Below, piece by piece: positions 23,544 to 36,410 of a DNA stretch of 64,000 nt. The first letter of the stretch is position 1; each line of letters opens with the position of its first letter. The notes beneath the pieces are model-generated. The model saw only the letters and a program-made list of their open reading frames with translations, did not search any database and had not been told where the DNA came from. The position numbers and the translations under genes are program-made. This DNA comes from Alteriqipengyuania halimionae (lineage in GTDB: Bacteria; Pseudomonadota; Alphaproteobacteria; Sphingomonadales; Sphingomonadaceae), in the NCBI RefSeq assembly GCF_009827575.1, contig NZ_WTYR01000001.1, positions 2,391,001 through 2,455,000 on the forward strand, given 5' to 3'.

Positions 23544-24395
23544 TCACGAGGACAGCGGGGCGTTCATGTCCCCTTGCTCCCGCTTTTCCCGACGCTGTTG
23601 GAGCAGCCGGATCACCGCCGCGGCGGTTTCCTCGATCGAGCGGCGAGTCACATCGATCACCGGCCAGTCATTATCGGCGAAGATCCGGCGCGCGAATTTA
23701 AGTTCCTCCGAAACATGGTCTTCGTCTGTATAAGAAGTCTCGTCGCGCTCCCCTACGGTCAGCAAGCGATTGCGACGGATCTCGATCAATCGCTTGGGCG
23801 CCGTCGTCAGGCCCACCACCATCGGCGATTTCAGCCGGAACAGGATATCGGGCGGTGGGCTTTCCAGGACCAACGGAATGTTGGCCGTCTTGTAACCGCG
23901 ATTGGCAAGGTAGATCGAGGTTGGGGTCTTCGAACTGCGGGACACGCCGGCCAGCACGATATCGGCCTCTTCCCATTCCTCGCTCAGCAAGCCGTCATCA
24001 TGCGCGATGGTGTAATGAATCGCATCCACGCGATCGAAATAGGCTTCGTCCATCGTGTGCTGGCGCCCGGGCCGGGCGCGCGCCTGACGGCCGAGCGCTT
24101 CCTCGAGCGCGGTCAGCACCGGGTCGAGCGGGGACACCGCAGGTATGTCGAGCGACCGACAGCGATCTTCCAGCGCCGAGCGGATTTCTCCGCTCGCCAT
24201 GGTAAAGAGCACGATGCCCGGATGCTTCGCGACATCGGCTATAATCCGTTCCAGTCCTTGCTTGGAGCGAACCAGGGGCCAGAAATGGCGCTTGATATCG
24301 GCGCCTTCGAATTGCGCGACCGCGGCCTTCGCCAGCATGTCGAGCGTTTCTCCGGTCGAATCGGAAATGAGGTGGAGGTTGAGGAGCTGGGTCAT
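23544..24395 (-). CDS. ppsR: Pyruvate,phosphate dikinase / PEP synthase regulatory protein
   Basis: A 283-residue DUF299 bifunctional kinase/phosphorylase that switches pyruvate phosphate dikinase or PEP synthase by Thr phosphorylation. The N-terminal LHLISDSTGET and the P-loop GVSRSSKTPTSIYLAN (about 150) are diagnostic. It is the first gene left of the proposed origin. A near-consensus DnaA box overlaps its start codon. No strong ribosome-binding site is evident. Confidence 0.94.
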   Translation of the reverse strand: MTQLLNLHLISDSTGETLDMLAKAAVAQFEGADIKRHFWPLVRSKQGLERIIADVAKHPGIVLFTMASGEIRSALEDRCRSLDIPAVSPLDPVLTALEEALGRQARARPGRQHTMDEAYFDRVDAIHYTIAHDDGLLSEEWEEADIVLAGVSRSSKTPTSIYLANRGYKTANIPLVLESPPPDILFRLKSPMVVGLTTAPKRLIEIRRNRLLTVGERDETSYTDEDHVSEELKFARRIFADNDWPVIDVTRRSIEETAAAVIRLLQQRREKREQGDMNAPLSS

Positions 24396-24403
24396 GTGGA
24401 TAC
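24395..24403 (-). promoter_or_regulatory. DnaA box-like site 1
   Basis: TGTGGATAC, one mismatch to the reverse DnaA box TGTGGATAA. It overlaps the first base of the ppsR start codon and lies 3 nt from site 2. Confidence 0.5.
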
Positions 24404-24406
24404 GCC

Positions 24407-24415
24407 TGCGGATAA
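24407..24415 (-). promoter_or_regulatory. DnaA box-like site 2
   Basis: TGCGGATAA, one mismatch to the reverse DnaA box. It is in tandem with site 1, 12 bp start to start. Confidence 0.5.
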
Positions 24416-24627
24416 ACCACGGGAGAGGCCCGGTGACAATTCCGGCATACCGTTTTGCCGCCGCTGCGAGTCATTTTCTTTGGCGATTTCTGGACAGGGA
24501 CAGAGTCCGCCCACAGCCTGTGGAGAGTGGGGACGAGATTCCGATTGACGCGGGGCGAGGCGGAGTCGCTCCTGTCAATCAAGGCTGGAACAGGACTCGC
24601 AAATCGGGCAGGGCGGCGCCGTCCCCG

Positions 24628-24636
24628 CTATCCACA
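24628..24636 (+). promoter_or_regulatory. DnaA box-like site 3 beside the AT-rich tract
   Basis: CTATCCACA, one mismatch to TTATCCACA, 23 nt before the AT-rich tract that starts near 24660. The position beside a likely unwinding element is what an origin requires. Confidence 0.55.
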
Positions 24637-24695
24637 GGACAACAGACTACAGCACCCTCTTTATTCCTTTAATTATTTTTGGTCTTTTCTCTTCC

Positions 24696-25736
24696 ATGAC
24701 GAGCGCTCTGATCCGAACCCTGCGTGGCGAAAACGTGGTGCCGCGCCCCCTCTGGCTAATGCGGCAGGCGGGGCGTTATCTCCCGGAATACCGTGCCTTA
24801 CGCGCCGAAAAGGGCGGGTTCCTCGACCTCGTCTACGATCACGAAGCCGCGGCGGAGATCACGTTGCAGCCGCTGCAACGGTTCGATTTCGACGGGGCAA
24901 TCCTGTTTTCCGACATCCTGATCGTGCCGCATGCGCTGGGCCAGGGGCTGACCTTCGTTGCCGGCGAGGGGCCGCGCCTTTCGCCGCCGCTCACCGAGGC
25001 GGAACTCGATTCCTTCGATCCGGCGCCAGAGCATTACGAGGCCGTGTGGCGTACGGTCGCATTGTTGGCGAAAGAGCTGGGACCCGAGAAGACATTGATC
25101 GGCTTTTCGGGCGCGCCGTGGACCGTCGCGACCTACATGGTCGCCGGGCAGGGCAGCAAGGAACAGGCCCCGGCACGCCAGCTTGCCTATCGCGATCCGG
25201 CGCGCTTCCAGGCGATCATCGACCGGATCGTCGAAAGCACGATCAATTACCTCGACGGGCAGGTCGAAGCCGGTGCACAGGCGCTGCAAGTGTTCGATTC
25301 GTGGAGCGGCAGCCTCGCCCCCGACGAATTCGAACGCTGGGTGATCGCGCCGACGGCGCAGATCGTTTCGGAAATGAAGCGCCGTCGCCCCGATACCCCG
25401 ATCATCGGGTTTCCCAAGGGCGCGGGTGCCAAGCTTCCGGCCTATGTTCGCGAAACCGGCGTCGATGCGGTCGGGCTCGACGAAACGGTCGATCCGCGCT
25501 GGGCGCATGACGTGCTGCCCGACGGTTTGCCGGTGCAGGGCAATTTCGATCCGCAATTGCTGCTGTCCGGCAGCGGCCGGATCGAGAGCAGGTCGCGCGA
25601 AATCCTCGATGCGCTGGCCGGGCGCCCGCACATCTTCAACCTCGGTCACGGCATCGATCGCTTTACGCCGATCGAAAATGTGGAACGGCTCGTCGCTGCG
25701 GTGAAGGGCTGGACCCCCGGTAATGGGGAGGGCTAA
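24696..25736 (+). CDS. hemE: Uroporphyrinogen decarboxylase
   Basis: HemE, 346 residues, converts uroporphyrinogen III to coproporphyrinogen III in haem synthesis. The N-terminal PLWLMRQAGRYLPEYR and the GFSGAPWTVATYM segment are diagnostic, with active-site Arg and Asp residues present (FDFDGAILFSDIL). It is the first gene right of the proposed origin. Its leader is a pyrimidine-rich, AT-rich tract with no Shine-Dalgarno sequence, so initiation is unusual. hemJ follows. Confidence 0.97.
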   Translation: MTSALIRTLRGENVVPRPLWLMRQAGRYLPEYRALRAEKGGFLDLVYDHEAAAEITLQPLQRFDFDGAILFSDILIVPHALGQGLTFVAGEGPRLSPPLTEAELDSFDPAPEHYEAVWRTVALLAKELGPEKTLIGFSGAPWTVATYMVAGQGSKEQAPARQLAYRDPARFQAIIDRIVESTINYLDGQVEAGAQALQVFDSWSGSLAPDEFERWVIAPTAQIVSEMKRRRPDTPIIGFPKGAGAKLPAYVRETGVDAVGLDETVDPRWAHDVLPDGLPVQGNFDPQLLLSGSGRIESRSREILDALAGRPHIFNLGHGIDRFTPIENVERLVAAVKGWTPGNGEG

Positions 25737-27665: not shown

Positions 27666-28193
27666 GTGGTTTCGCGTCTGGTCGTCACCGGCGCGCCAGG
27701 TGCGGGCAAATCTACCCTGCTGGAAACTCTGGCGGCGCGAGGCATGGCGGTCGAACGCGAGGTTGCGCGCAGCATTCTGCAAGCGCCGGGCGGCATGGAG
27801 ATGCGTGCCCGGCGTCCGCAGGATTTCGCGCGCGCCATGCTCGAGGCCGAAAGCGCTGCTTATGCACGGGCTGCGATGAATTGCGGCGCGACGCTATTCG
27901 ATCGGGGCTTTCCGGACATCGCCGGTTTCCTGAAGGTCGAAGGTTTGCCGGTGATCGATGCTGTGGAACGAGCATGCCGCGACAGGCGCTACACCGGCCC
28001 GATCTTCCGCGCGCCACCCTGGCGCGAGATCTATTGGCAGGATGAGGAGCGGATTCAGGACTGGGATGGGGCCGTGGCCAGCGATGCAGCGATTTGCGCC
28101 GCTTGGCGGATGTACGGTTACGAATTGATCGACCTGCCGCTCGCCTCAGCCGATGAGCGTGCCGATTTCGTGCTCAGGCAGCAGTCGAACTAG
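27666..28193 (+). CDS. AAA-family ATP/GTP-binding protein
   Basis: A 175-residue small P-loop protein with Walker A GAPGAGKST at about residue 9-17 and a DRGFPDIAGFLK segment (about 78-89). The family resembles AAA_28/adenylate-kinase-like uncharacterised ATPases. Target and substrate are unknown. It starts with GTG one nucleotide after rho and shares a CTAG stop overlap with the convergent GltS-like gene. Confidence 0.75.
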   Translation: MVSRLVVTGAPGAGKSTLLETLAARGMAVEREVARSILQAPGGMEMRARRPQDFARAMLEAESAAYARAAMNCGATLFDRGFPDIAGFLKVEGLPVIDAVERACRDRRYTGPIFRAPPWREIYWQDEERIQDWDGAVASDAAICAAWRMYGYELIDLPLASADERADFVLRQQSN

Positions 28194-29764
28194 CTCCCGC
28201 AGTCAAAACTCTCTGCACTGGCGGCATTCCAGGCCGGGCCGAGCAGTGTGCTGTCGGCATCGTCGAGCAATTGGCCTTCCTCGACGAAGGAATAAATCCG
28301 GTCGATCGGCAGTGATTTCGCGCCGTTCAAACGTTCGCGCATATCGCCAGGACGAATCTCCCACGGGCTTTCGAGACCCATGGCGACGGTGATTTCGCGC
28401 AGCGAATGGAGAGTCTGGCGCTGGAACCGGGCGATGCGCGGCGCCTTGTCCTCGACCACGAGGCCGCGCTGGCGCCATGGGGTCTGGGTCGCGATGCCGG
28501 TCGGGCAATTCCCGGTATGACACTGCATAGACTGGATGCATCCGGTCGCGAACATGAAGGGACGGGCTGCGTTGCAATAGTCGGTGCCGAGAGCGAAGCT
28601 GACGGCCATCTGGGCACCCGAATGGATCTTCCCCGCAGATGCGATCTTCACGCGCGATTTCAGCCCGGTTCCGACCAGCATGTTGCGCACCCAGATCGTC
28701 CCTTCGCGCAGCGGCATGCCGACGCGGTTGGACAATTCCAGCGGCGCGGCACCGGTGCCACCTTCGGCGCCGTCGACGGTGATGAAATCGGGCGTGATGC
28801 CGGTTTCCATCATCGCCTTGCCCAGCGCCATCACTTCATGCGGTTTGCCGACGCAAAGCTTGAATCCGACCGGCTTTCCGCCGCTCAATTCGCGCAATTG
28901 CGCGACCCATTCAAGCAGTCCGATCGGAGTGGAGAAGGTCGAATGGGCGGCAGGGGAGGTCACCGTCTCACCCACGGGCACGCCGCGCGCCTCCGCGATC
29001 TCTTCGGTCACCTTTTCGCCTGGCAGCACACCGCCATGACCCGGCTTGGCGCCCTGGCTTAGCTTGATCTCGATCATCTTGACCTGTTCGCCGGTCGCAT
29101 TGTCGGCGAACTTGTCGGGATCGAACTGGCCGTTGAAACCGCGACAGCCGAAATAACCGCTGCCGATTTCCCAGATCAGGTCGCCACCATGCCTGCGATG
29201 ATATTTCGAGATGCTGCCTTCGCCCGTATTGTGGGCGAAGCTGCCGATCTTGGCGCCGAGATTGAGTGCTTCGATCGCACGCGCCGATAGCGAACCGAAG
29301 CTCATGGCCGAAATGTTGAGCAGGGCGGCATCGTAGGGTTGTCTGCAATCGGGTCCGCCGATTTTCACGCGCCAGAATTCGGGCGCATCCTCGCGCGGAA
29401 CGATCGAATGGCTGAGCCACTCGTATTCTTCCGAATAGACGTCGAGTTCGGTGCCCATCGGGTGCGCATCGAGATCGCCCTTGGCCCGGGCATAGACGAG
29501 CGCGCGTTCCTGATGACTGAACGGGCGGCCCTCCAGATCGTCCTCGACGATATAGGCCTGCGCGAACGGGCGGATATCTTCCATCAGCCAGCGAATTCGG
29601 GAGACCAGCGGATAGTTGCGACGCAACGTGTGTTCGGACTGAAAGAAATCGATCCATGCCAGCACAGCCAGCGGGACGAGCAGGATCAGTGTGGGCCACC
29701 ACAGCAGCGCCAGCCCGAAGGCAAGGGCGGTGACGAGCAGCGGAAGGATATAGCGCCAGGGCAT
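28190..29764 (-). CDS. FMN-binding glutamate-synthase-family protein (membrane-anchored)
   Basis: A 524-residue protein. Two N-terminal hydrophobic segments (about 5-40) precede a GltS FMN-binding domain with GTGAAPLE (about 330) and the iron-sulfur ligands of GltS, spaced C-x5-C-x4-C in CIQSMQCHTGNCPTG. The glutaminase domain of true glutamate synthase is missing, so it is a relative of unclear substrate, probably reduced by a separate donor. Such proteins are often annotated FMN-binding glutamate synthase. It is followed at 6 nt by the dienelactone-hydrolase gene start on the same strand. Confidence 0.85.
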   Translation of the reverse strand: MPWRYILPLLVTALAFGLALLWWPTLILLVPLAVLAWIDFFQSEHTLRRNYPLVSRIRWLMEDIRPFAQAYIVEDDLEGRPFSHQERALVYARAKGDLDAHPMGTELDVYSEEYEWLSHSIVPREDAPEFWRVKIGGPDCRQPYDAALLNISAMSFGSLSARAIEALNLGAKIGSFAHNTGEGSISKYHRRHGGDLIWEIGSGYFGCRGFNGQFDPDKFADNATGEQVKMIEIKLSQGAKPGHGGVLPGEKVTEEIAEARGVPVGETVTSPAAHSTFSTPIGLLEWVAQLRELSGGKPVGFKLCVGKPHEVMALGKAMMETGITPDFITVDGAEGGTGAAPLELSNRVGMPLREGTIWVRNMLVGTGLKSRVKIASAGKIHSGAQMAVSFALGTDYCNAARPFMFATGCIQSMQCHTGNCPTGIATQTPWRQRGLVVEDKAPRIARFQRQTLHSLREITVAMGLESPWEIRPGDMRERLNGAKSLPIDRIYSFVEEGQLLDDADSTLLGPAWNAASAESFDCGS

Positions 29765-29770
29765 TCGCGT

Positions 29771-30466
29771 TCAGCCGAGGTGCTCGGCGAAGAATTCCTT
29801 CGTGCGGCCATCGGCGAGGTTGGCGCATTCCGCGTTGCGGCGTTCGCCGAACTGGGTTGCGAAACCGTGGTCCATGCCTTCGTAATCGTGCAGCGTGACC
29901 TTGGGATGGTCGTCGAGACCATCGTGCATGGCCTTCTGCGTTTCCTTGTCGACGAACCCGTCGTCGGTGGGGATATGCAGCATCAGCGGGCGGGCGATCG
30001 CGTTCTTCTCGCGCAGGAGGTTGTCGACCCCGACCGCATAATAACCGACCGTCGCGTCGCTGTCGGTGCGCGCCGCGGTCATGTAAGCGAGCCGTCCACC
30101 GAGGCAGTAGCCCACCGCACCGACCTTGCCGCAGCCTTGCGAGCGCGCCCATTTAATCGTCGCCTCGATATCGCGTACGCCTTGGTCCTGGTCGAACTTG
30201 TTCATGAGCTCGAGAGCCTTCTGGAATTCGGGTTCGATATCGGGATCGAGTTCGACCTCGGGTTCGAGGGGCCAAAAGAGATCGGGGGCGACCGCCAGAT
30301 AACCGTCTTCGGCTAGCAGGTCGCACTTGCGACGGATCCCGGCATTTACACCGAAAATCTCCTGAATCACCACGATCGCTGCTTTCGCTTCGCCTTCGGG
30401 GCGGGCGACATAGGCGGCGAAATCCTTGTCGCCATTGATCTGCTGGATGCGAATGTTCTCGCTCAT
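29771..30466 (-). CDS. Dienelactone hydrolase family protein
   Basis: A 231-residue alpha/beta hydrolase of the DLH family. The nucleophile is cysteine in GYCLGGRLAY (about 120), with Asp in DDGFVD and His in DHGFATQF completing the triad. AGGGAGAA lies upstream of the ATG at 30466, which fits the family N-terminus. Substrate is unknown. It is divergent from the DUF6489 gene across 93 nt with no clear operator. Confidence 0.88.
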   Translation of the reverse strand: MSENIRIQQINGDKDFAAYVARPEGEAKAAIVVIQEIFGVNAGIRRKCDLLAEDGYLAVAPDLFWPLEPEVELDPDIEPEFQKALELMNKFDQDQGVRDIEATIKWARSQGCGKVGAVGYCLGGRLAYMTAARTDSDATVGYYAVGVDNLLREKNAIARPLMLHIPTDDGFVDKETQKAMHDGLDDHPKVTLHDYEGMDHGFATQFGERRNAECANLADGRTKEFFAEHLG

Positions 30467-30559
30467 GGAATTCTCCCTGCTGTTCTCGCCGCGACGGGCA
30501 TACATTGCAAAATGCGTCTCGCACGCCACATTGTTCCCGACAACAGAGGGAATTGACCC

Positions 30560-30820
30560 ATGAAAATGAATATCGAAATCGATTGCACGCCCGAGGAGGC
30601 GCGGACCTTCATGGGGCTGCCCGATGTGACGCCCGCGAACGACGTCTATGTCGATGCCGTCACCAAGGCGATGAAGGGCATGGGCAATGTGGATCAGCTG
30701 CAGGAATATGCCACCAAGCTCGCCCCGATGGGTCAGATGGGGCTGAAGATGTTCCAACAATTCGTCGAAGCGGGTGCTGCGGGTGCCAAGCCGGCCAAGC
30801 CGCCGAAGAAAGACGACTGA
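30560..30820 (+). CDS. DUF6489 family protein
   Basis: An 86-residue cytoplasmic protein of the alphaproteobacterial DUF6489 family (MKMNIEIDCTPEEARTF and the KPAKPPKKDD tail). It has no known function. AGAGGGAATTGACCC lies just upstream of the ATG. mnmE starts 13 nt downstream. Confidence 0.7.
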   Translation: MKMNIEIDCTPEEARTFMGLPDVTPANDVYVDAVTKAMKGMGNVDQLQEYATKLAPMGQMGLKMFQQFVEAGAAGAKPAKPPKKDD

Positions 30821-30833
30821 GCTTCTTCCATCG

Positions 30834-32108
30834 ATGGATGACACGATTTTCGCGCTGTCGAGCGGTGCGCCGCCTGCGGCGATAGCGATCGTGCGCGTCA
30901 GCGGATCGCGCGCGGGCGAAATCGCCGAAGGTCTTTCGGGCCGCAAGCCCGAGCCGCGTAGAGCCGCGCTCGCCCGCTTGCGCAATCGTGAGGGCGAAAC
31001 GCTCGATGATGCGCTCATTCTCTGGTTTCCCGGACCCGATACGGCGACGGGAGAGGATCTGCTCGAGTTGCATTGCCATGGCGGACGTGCGGTGGTGAGG
31101 GCGGTCGAACATGCGCTTCAACATGCTTGGGACTGTCGACCCGCGGAGGCTGGGGAGTTTACTCGCCGCGCCTTCGCCAACGGAAGGATCGATCTTGCCC
31201 AGGCCGAGGCCTTGGGCGATCTTCTTTCCGCAGAAAGCGAGTTGCAGCGGCGCGTCGCGGTGCGGATGGCGGGTGGCGCAGCCTCAGCGCGCGTGGAGGA
31301 TTGGCGCGAACGCTTGCTCATTTTGGCGGCACAGATCGAAGCAGCGCTCGATTTCAGCGATGAGGACGATGTGGCGGATCTTTCTCCTGCGTTCTCGGCC
31401 GGGGTTGCAACACTGGCAGCCGAAATTGGCGAATGGCTCGCGCGGCCAGCGGCAGAACGGCTTCGTGAAGGGATCAGGATTGCGCTGGCTGGACCCCCGA
31501 ATTCTGGAAAATCGAGTTTGTTCAACAGGTTGCTTGACGAAGAAGCGGCAATCGCCACGCCTATCGAAGGTACGACGCGGGATCTTCTTGAGCGACCTAT
31601 TGCGTGGGGCGGCGTACCTTTCACGCTCATTGATACCGCCGGCCTGCGCGATACGACCGACGATGCGATCGAAGCGATCGGGATCGAGCGAGCGCGGAGT
31701 GCCTTGGCGGATGCCGATATCGTTCTCTGGCTTGGACCGAAAGGCGAAGGACCCCGAGGCGCCTGGGAAATCGAAACCAAATCCGACCTTGATGGCCCAG
31801 GCAAACACGCGGCGCGACACCGTGTCTCGGCCGTGAATGGGGAAGGGGTGTTGGGGCTCCAGACCGATCTCGTCGCGTCCGCTCGCGACATCCTTCCCAA
31901 GCCAGGTGAGACCGCACTGAATGCGCGTCAGCGCGCGGCGCTCATGCCAGCGGAGGATGCGTTGCTGTCGATCGAAAACGAAGGCGATCATTTGCTCATC
32001 GCCGAGAACCTGCGGCGTGCCCGCGTAGCGTTCGATGCCTTCACGGGACGCGCGGCGAGCGAGGACGTGCTCGATCGTCTATTCGGGCAATTTTGTATCG
32101 GGAAATGA
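30834..32108 (+). CDS. mnmE: tRNA U34 modification GTPase MnmE
   Basis: MnmE, 424 residues, builds cmnm5U34 on tRNA with MnmG. The N-terminal THF-binding domain begins FALSSGAPPAAIAIVRVSG. The G domain (about 215-370) has G1 AGPPNSGKSS and G3 DTAGLRDTTD, with TKSD as a G4-like element. The C-terminus ends with the conserved catalytic FCIGK. The protein is slightly shorter than the usual 440-455 residues. A perfect parS lies 9 nt after the stop. Confidence 0.95.
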   Translation: MDDTIFALSSGAPPAAIAIVRVSGSRAGEIAEGLSGRKPEPRRAALARLRNREGETLDDALILWFPGPDTATGEDLLELHCHGGRAVVRAVEHALQHAWDCRPAEAGEFTRRAFANGRIDLAQAEALGDLLSAESELQRRVAVRMAGGAASARVEDWRERLLILAAQIEAALDFSDEDDVADLSPAFSAGVATLAAEIGEWLARPAAERLREGIRIALAGPPNSGKSSLFNRLLDEEAAIATPIEGTTRDLLERPIAWGGVPFTLIDTAGLRDTTDDAIEAIGIERARSALADADIVLWLGPKGEGPRGAWEIETKSDLDGPGKHAARHRVSAVNGEGVLGLQTDLVASARDILPKPGETALNARQRAALMPAEDALLSIENEGDHLLIAENLRRARVAFDAFTGRAASEDVLDRLFGQFCIGK

Positions 32109-32117
32109 AGGCGCGAA

Positions 32118-32133
32118 TGTTCCACGTGGAACA
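32118..32133. other. parS: parS site 1 (ParB-binding centromere site)
   Basis: TGTTCCACGTGGAACA, a perfect 16-bp palindrome matching alphaproteobacterial parS, in the 66-nt mnmE-mnmG gap. It lies about 7.5 kb from the proposed origin. Confidence 0.9.
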
Positions 32134-34022: not shown

Positions 34023-34660
34023 TCGAGAATGAAGACCAGGCTCGCGCCTGGGTTGAGGCTTTGCCGGAGTGCGACCCCTCGATGATCGCGCGGTTTGAGC
34101 GCTTCGAAGCGCTCCTCCGCGATGAGAACGACCGACAAAATCTGGTCTCCGCAAAATCGCTCGATCACACGTGGTCCCGGCACTTCGCCGATAGCCTGCA
34201 GCTACTTCAAGATGTTCCACGTGAAACATCCGATTGGCTCGATCTCGGTACAGGGGCGGGGTTTCCGGGAATCGCGATAGCGATCGCGCGCCCTGATCAG
34301 GAAACCGTATGCGTCGAATCGCGCGCACTTCGCACCAAGTTTCTCGATTACATTGTTGACGAGCTCGAGCTCACGCAGTGTCGTATCTTGCACTGCCGGT
34401 TGCAGGACGTAGAAACGCGTCCGTTCGACGCTGTTTCAGCTCGCGCGTTCGCGCCATTGCCCAAGCTCCTCGAATTGTCCTCTCGGTTTTCCACTCGGGA
34501 CACGCTATGGAGGTTGCCCAAGGGGCGCTCTGCGGCGCGGGAATTGGAAAACCTCCGGGGATGGGACCACATGTTCCACGTGGAACAATCCCTAACCGAC
34601 GCAGATTCCGGGATCATTTGCGGCACACTGGCTGGTCGCAAGAAAGGGAAGCGGGCATGA
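34019..34660 (+). CDS. rsmG: 16S rRNA m7G527 methyltransferase RsmG
   Basis: RsmG (GidB), 213 residues, methylates G527 in 16S rRNA. The SAM motif is [20 protein letters not shown], and the N-terminal basic segment (about 15-60) and [11 protein letters not shown] are typical. It overlaps mnmG by 4 nt and its stop overlaps the parA start. Two parS sites are embedded in its coding sequence, so natural selection acts on both codons and ParB binding. Confidence 0.93.
34213..34228. other. parS: parS site 3 (inside rsmG)
   Basis: TGTTCCACGTGAAACA, one base short of a perfect palindrome and mixing the two common parS half-sites. It encodes residues in the N-terminal half of RsmG. Confidence 0.88.
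34572..34587. other. parS: parS site 4 (inside rsmG, near parA)
   Basis: TGTTCCACGTGGAACA, identical to site 1, 70 nt before the parA start. Together the sites span about 2.5 kb directly upstream of parAB. Confidence 0.9.
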
Positions 34661-35433
34661 TCGTCATAGCTGTGGCCAATCAGAAGGGCGGTGTGGGGAA
34701 AACCACCACAGCCATCAACATGGCAACCGCGATGGCCGCGATCGGGTGGAAAACGCTGCTGATCGATCTCGACCCCCAGGGAAATGCATCGACCGGGCTG
34801 GGGATCACCGCCGAGCAACGCTCGATGTCGATTTACGACCTGCTCGTCGAGGACGCGGATCTGGAGGATTGTCTCGTGGCGAGCTCAATCCCCGGTCTCG
34901 ATGTCCTTCCGGCTACACAGGATCTTTCCGGCGCCGAAGTGCAGCTTGTTTCGCGCGAAAACCGCAATACGGGCCTGAAGGATGCCCTTGCCAGGCAGTC
35001 TCGCCATGAGATCGCGTTTATCGATTGCCCGCCTTCATTGGGTCTCCTGACGCTCAATGCGCTGACCGCTGCGGACACATTGCTAGTCCCTCTCCAATGC
35101 GAATTCTTCGCGCTGGAAGGGCTCAGTCAGCTTTTGCAAACGGTGGAGCAAGTGCAGGGTCACCTGAACCCCGATTTGGGAATCATCGGCATCGCACTGA
35201 CGATGTTCGACCGGCGAAATCGCCTGACCGACCAGGTTGCCGACGACGTGCGCGAATGTTTGGGCCAACTGGTCTTCGAAACGGTCGTCCCGCGTAACGT
35301 GCGGCTGTCGGAGGCGCCAAGTCATGGCCTTCCCGCGCTGGTCTATGATCAGAATTGTACGGGCAGCCGAGCCTATATGGCGCTCGCGCGCGAGCTGATC
35401 GGCCGACTGCCTGAAAAAAGGAAAGCCGCATGA
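34657..35433 (+). CDS. parA: Chromosome-partitioning ATPase ParA
   Basis: A 258-residue Walker-type ATPase that drives ParB-parS movement. It starts [18 protein letters not shown], the deviant Walker A, then LIDLDPQGNAST (A'), FIDCPPSLGLL (Walker B) and VPRNVRLSEAPSHGLP near the C-terminus. It lacks the N-terminal helix-turn-helix of plasmid ParA, so it is the chromosomal (Soj-like) type. AAGGGAAG precedes the ATG, which overlaps the rsmG stop as ATGA. parB overlaps its stop. Confidence 0.96.
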   Translation: MIVIAVANQKGGVGKTTTAINMATAMAAIGWKTLLIDLDPQGNASTGLGITAEQRSMSIYDLLVEDADLEDCLVASSIPGLDVLPATQDLSGAEVQLVSRENRNTGLKDALARQSRHEIAFIDCPPSLGLLTLNALTAADTLLVPLQCEFFALEGLSQLLQTVEQVQGHLNPDLGIIGIALTMFDRRNRLTDQVADDVRECLGQLVFETVVPRNVRLSEAPSHGLPALVYDQNCTGSRAYMALARELIGRLPEKRKAA

Positions 35434-36410
35434 GCGATTCGAAAGCGAAACCGGCACAGAAGAAGCGCCAGGCGCTCGGCCGCGGGCTCGGGGCTCTGAT
35501 CGGGGAGACCAAGCGCGAACAGGTCGTGCGTCCTGCCCGAAGCACCGGATCGCAGGAAGCAAGTTCGTCAGCAGCTTCATCTCCGGTCGATGCCGTACAG
35601 GGAGAAGGGCTCGCAACGATTCCGATCGCGCAGATTTCGCCCCATCCCGGCCAGCCCCGCAAACATTTCGATGACGACGCACTTGGCGAACTCGCGGCTT
35701 CGATTTCGGCGCGTGGGGTGATCCAGCCGGTTATCGTCACGCGCGAAGCGGCCCGCAAATTTCGCCTTGTCGCTGGCGAACGCCGCTGGCGCGCCGCCCA
35801 GAAGGCGCAACTGCATGAAATCCCTGCAATAATAAGGGATTTGACCGAGCGTGAAGTGACCGCGCTGGCGCTGATAGAGAATCTGCAGCGCGAAGATCTC
35901 AATCCGGTCGACGAAGCTCGTGCGTATCAGAGGCTCGCCGACGACGAAGGCATGACCCAGGCAGAGATTGCCCAGATGGTCGACAAGTCACGCAGCCACG
36001 TCGCCAATTTTCAACGCCTGCTGGCTCTGCCGGCCAAGGTGCTCGATGCCCTGGCCGCAGACAAGCTCACCATGGGTCATGCGCGTGCGATGATCGGATT
36101 CGACGGAGCCGAGGCGCTGGCCAAGAAAGCGATCGCCAAGGGCATGTCGGTCCGCGATGTCGAACGGGCGGTGCGTCGGTCCCATGCCGACGCGGCAGGC
36201 GAGGGCAAGCCGAAGGACGAATTCAAGAGCGCGTCGGGTGCGCCCGATTCGGATATCCGGACCGTCGAGCGGCATCTCGAGGAGTTTCTCGGCATGAAGG
36301 TGCGAATCACGGGAGAAAGCGATCCGCGTAAAGGCACGCTCGCGATTCGCTACACCACACTCGACCAGCTCGATACGCTCTGCCAGCGCCTGTCGGGCGG
36401 CGATATCTAG
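35430..36410 (+). CDS. parB: Chromosome-partitioning protein ParB
   Basis: A 326-residue CTP-dependent DNA clamp that loads at parS. The N-terminal LGRGLGALIG contacts ParA, HPGQPRKHF begins the ParB/Sulfiredoxin domain, and GERRWRAAQKA is the CTP-binding motif. The helix-turn-helix region AQMVDKSRSHVANF follows, and a C-terminal dimerisation segment ends the protein. It is coupled to parA by ATGA. The four parS-like sites upstream are its likely loading sites. Confidence 0.96.
   Translation: MSDSKAKPAQKKRQALGRGLGALIGETKREQVVRPARSTGSQEASSSAASSPVDAVQGEGLATIPIAQISPHPGQPRKHFDDDALGELAASISARGVIQPVIVTREAARKFRLVAGERRWRAAQKAQLHEIPAIIRDLTEREVTALALIENLQREDLNPVDEARAYQRLADDEGMTQAEIAQMVDKSRSHVANFQRLLALPAKVLDALAADKLTMGHARAMIGFDGAEALAKKAIAKGMSVRDVERAVRRSHADAAGEGKPKDEFKSASGAPDSDIRTVERHLEEFLGMKVRITGESDPRKGTLAIRYTTLDQLDTLCQRLSGGDI

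Follow-up and report, generated by a model that had tools for sequence, protein, structure and literature searches.

Gene setting of the ppsR-hemE gap

The window, the whole stretch of 64,000 nucleotides analysed here, covers positions 2,391,001-2,455,000 of a 2,797,261-bp contig, the chromosome being 2.797 Mb long. It contains a 300-bp intergenic gap (24396-24695) between the divergent genes ppsR (23544-24395, minus strand) and hemE (24696-25736, plus strand). The genes on the left, ppsR, maf, aroE, coaE, a dnaQ-like gene, hpf, ptsN and the genes of a thioesterase and a cell-wall hydrolase, were largely confirmed as a minus-strand run that reaches back to ~17.9 kb. The right side carries hemE, hemJ, rho, mnmE, mnmG, rsmG, parA and parB. 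The reversal of gene orientation at the gap noted in the preliminary description therefore holds for the left side, whereas the plus-strand right side is interrupted between rho and mnmE by two minus-strand genes (28190-29764 and 29771-31018). This pair shows Pfam Glu_synthase and dienelactone hydrolase domains. The partition genes placed near the gap by the same description were confirmed as an open frame for a ParA-type ATPase (34378-35433, plus strand), matched from residue ~94, and parB (35430-36410, plus strand), with parS-like sites at 32118-32133, 34213-34228 (TGTTCCACGTGAAACA) and 34572-34587.

The gene arrangement is conserved. HemE was present in all 40 genomes searched, and ppsR lies upstream of hemE in 29 of the 30 loci fetched, the exception being a shorter locus. 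A divergent ppsR was found in 23/23 same-family loci fetched and, separated from hemE by 277-433 bp, in 75 of 80 named hemE loci from sphingomonads. The gap thus has the location, within a conserved gene order, of a hemE-type alphaproteobacterial oriC.

Strand asymmetry of the chromosome

GC skew and the polarity of the FtsK-orienting KOPS motif (GGGNAGGG) were followed in 20-kb stretches that sample about half of the chromosome. The skew is positive from 0 to ~990 kb. From ~1.0 Mb to the ppsR-hemE site it is negative, apart from a few stretches in which it is positive or close to zero, and past the site it is mostly positive. KOPS polarity tracks this pattern, and both signs switch between the stretches centred at 2,401 and 2,421 kb, with the ppsR-hemE site at 2,415.4 kb. 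In the contiguous 115 kb from 2,360 to 2,475 kb, the cumulative GC-skew minimum falls at window position 23,823, ~0.6 kb from the gap. The skew minimum proposed as a check of the origin, approximated on about half of the chromosome, thus lies beside the gap together with the sign change. In another genome of the same family, complete in a single contig, KOPS likewise switches at its own ppsR-hemE gap, with 2 plus and 9 minus motifs on the left (three stretches summed, with a 4-kb overlap between two of them) and 12 plus and 0 minus on the right (three stretches).

The opposite KOPS flip is located at 986.6-989.3 kb, almost diametrically across from the gap. At this convergence point lies a dif-like palindrome, ATTTTACATAATATATATTATCATCCTA (chromosome 988312-988339), which matches 19/28 positions of a generic dif string, against 15-16 for the best matches found in each of five other stretches, and 20/28 of E. 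coli dif. The ori/dif pair gives replichores of 1.370 and 1.427 Mb, and 229 KOPS agree with it in orientation and 28 disagree. This assigns both an ori and a dif site to this genome. Among the sampled stretches, chromosome positions 1880001-1900000 have a GC content of 0.394 compared with ~0.63 elsewhere, and are therefore likely a horizontally acquired island.

The skew profile also bears on an origin at dnaA. Such an arrangement is common elsewhere, and a GANTC cluster, described below, probably lies upstream of dnaA. However, dnaA, located by PF00308, is at 214 kb, ~0.6 Mb from the skew minimum, and an origin there is contradicted by the skew profile. In Sphingomonadales, moreover, dnaA is reported not to be conserved near ori (PMC8116508). 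An origin at dnaA can be practically dismissed.

A step fit on the skew did not separate 23.5 kb from 27.5 kb (window coordinates). Thus, the skew alone locates the origin to a few kilobases, and it is the motifs that pick the ppsR-hemE gap.

DnaA boxes in the gap

The three one-mismatch DnaA boxes claimed for the gap were all found. Box 1 (GTATCCACA, 24395-24403, minus strand) shares one base with the ppsR start codon, and its TGTGGA position is conserved in the family. Box 2 (TTATCCGCA, 24407-24415, minus strand) completes the pair described at the left end. Both are one-mismatch matches; of the two, only box 1 is retained as a DnaA box in the family alignment. The relatives mostly read GGCATAA there, so box 2 probably belongs to a different conserved element, ATAAACCACGGGA ... 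GACAAG. This element spans 24408-24445 in the window and is shared by Erythrobacter-like relatives. Its TTGTC-N17-TTTAT-like spacing suggests that it is possibly the minus-strand promoter of ppsR; a search of the gap for sigma-70 promoters and terminators found none, so that this assignment stays unproven. The third one-mismatch box (CTATCCACA, 24628-24636, plus strand) opens a module at the right end. The weaker fourth box is present with two mismatches (CTCTCCACA, 24519-24527, minus strand); it is degenerate in this strain, whereas several relatives carry a perfect TTATCCACA at the aligned position. In the alignment, box positions are conserved at both ends of the gap (24628-24636 on the right) and at its middle (24519-24527). 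Perfect TTATCCACA is absent from the gap and occurs six times elsewhere in the genome.

Single boxes are unremarkable, as the window contains five one-mismatch boxes compared with 3.9 expected. The signal is the clustering. Three one-mismatch boxes lie within 242 bp, and nowhere else in the 1.46 Mb sampled does a 300-bp segment hold more than two; on this sample, the gap has the DnaA-box cluster of a DnaA-dependent bacterial oriC. Across the named hemE loci, one-mismatch boxes number 2.27 per gap compared with 0.04 in the flanks, ~50x background.

These motifs weigh on a further alternative, that the origin lies in another nearby gap (for example at rho/mnmE or parAB) and that the ppsR-hemE gap serves only as a divergent promoter under DnaA control. 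The tolerance of the step fit (~23.5-27.5 kb) and the chance that part of the left conserved element is a promoter speak for it. However, the only other one-mismatch boxes in the window are singles at 30688 and 53558, whereas the box cluster and the AT-rich tract are both in the ppsR-hemE gap, where the boxes are conserved in relatives, and the published sphingomonad oriC described in PMC4741004 is at hemE. An origin in a neighbouring gap is very improbable.

The AT-rich tract and the right-hand module

An AT-rich tract occupies 24660-24695. The ~80% AT content described beside the right-end box was borne out exactly (80% at 24661-24690), and the 40-mers with the highest AT content in the window include this segment. 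The tract adjoins the DnaA box as in an oriC, and from base composition it is presumed to be the duplex unwinding element. From 24628, the conserved right-hand module reads box-GG(G)C-CAACAGACTCC-AT tract, and across relatives roughly TCCACA-GGGC-CAACAGACTCCATCATCC-AT tract. Some relatives have an CTACTACTT-like sequence at the CAACAGACTCCATCATCC position, as in DnaA-trios. In this genome, the trio position between the box and the AT tract is taken by a G-poor stretch (24637-24659, plus strand).

The strict BUS pattern (PMC8287927; a DnaA box with up to 2 mismatches, a spacer of 0-16 nt and at least 3 NAN trios) had no match in the gap of this strain. It was found in 40/104 gaps compared with 15/200 shuffles of this strain's gap, a rough yardstick since the shuffles were built on this strain's composition only.

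Clustering of GANTC sites

Five GANTC sites, the target of CcrM methylation, lie at 24468-24598 (starts 24468, 24503, 24537, 24563 and 24594). With the end of ppsR included, six GANTC fall in 300 bp, among the five densest places in the sampled DNA. The named hemE loci have 4.6 GANTC per gap, compared with 1.24 after shuffling and 0.60 in the flanks. In 98 gaps, GANTC is enriched 3.9-fold (466 vs. 120), and it alone is strongly enriched among the 16 palindromic NN-N-NN pentamers, the next reaching 1.7-fold. GANTC falls within the box/AT-tract module in 46 of the 49 such modules found. The genome encodes GcrA and a protein with a RAMA domain as in CcrM.

Another of the five densest places holds seven GANTC in ~460 bp at chromosome ~215.1-215.5 kb (2433-2889 of stretch L115). 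It probably sits upstream of dnaA, as a second cluster of CcrM sites at a replication gene.

The enrichment and its position in the modules suggest that methylation of the origin by CcrM could gate DnaA in sphingomonads, a speculative and rather unlikely reading which, if true, would parallel SeqA/Dam control. The weight of the enrichment itself is tempered by the intergenic GANTC enrichment already reported for alphaproteobacteria (in the text of PMC8116508 that cites Gonzalez 2014). A limited literature search found no account of GANTC clustering at sphingomonad origins. A paper on CcrM in Agrobacterium was set aside as a precedent; it concerns ori2 through repABC and not a DnaA origin.

The origin and its proposed operation

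In this relative of Sphingomonas and Erythrobacter, the ppsR-hemE gap is almost certainly the chromosomal oriC. Its position at the skew and KOPS switch, the strand asymmetry, the top cluster of DnaA boxes and the conservation of the boxes and of divergent ppsR-hemE in sphingomonads are observed here, and they support the earlier reading of the gap as a replication origin. The ppsR-hemE pair is likewise supported as a reliable origin marker across sphingomonads.

From these features we infer DnaA binding, melting and an effect of methylation at the gap. DnaA would bind the boxes at both ends of the gap and the one between them, and the complex formed on the 24628-24636 box would melt the adjoining AT-rich tract before hemE. 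Helicases would load at the melted tract, and two forks would depart in opposite directions. ParB on parS, 8-10 kb away, would then segregate the new origins. In this genome with CcrM-like and GcrA genes, the clustered GANTC would probably become hemimethylated upon firing, and this might adjust re-initiation or the promoters on either side.

Comparison with known origins

The Cori of Caulobacter crescentus is a DnaA-dependent AT-rich origin. Cori adjoins hemE (Brassinga et al. 2001, as cited in PMC4741004), as does the present gap, which by its motifs would likewise be a DnaA-dependent AT-rich origin. In contrast to Cori, dnaA is not near ori, and no CtrA site (TTAA-N7-TTAA) was found anywhere in the window, a difference that concerns the Caulobacter subtype only. 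In comparison with the BUS (PMC8287927), the gap has a box, a short GC-rich spacer, a strand-asymmetric stretch and an AT tract in the same order, but differs in the strict trio pattern, unmatched in this genome.

The closest likeness is within the family. PMC4741004 places the oriC of Sphingopyxis granuli TFA by hemE, in line with the DoriC predictions for most Sphingomonadaceae, and describes a conserved gene order, a putative DUE and several DnaA boxes that are conserved. The present gap shares the intergenic location by hemE, the gene order, several boxes and a putative DUE, and differs in having no perfect DnaA box. The preliminary description had taken the organism-specific origin as unrecorded; with a hemE-adjacent Sphingomonadaceae oriC already published there, only the record of this genome is new. 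Together with the report that dnaA is not near ori in Sphingomonadales (PMC8116508), this makes the origin finding correct but ordinary. The less ordinary aspect is the conserved GANTC clustering, a feature of the present gap that the passages of PMC4741004 consulted do not mention; it hints, in a way that can be tested across the family, that sites of CcrM methylation are concentrated at the sphingomonad origin.
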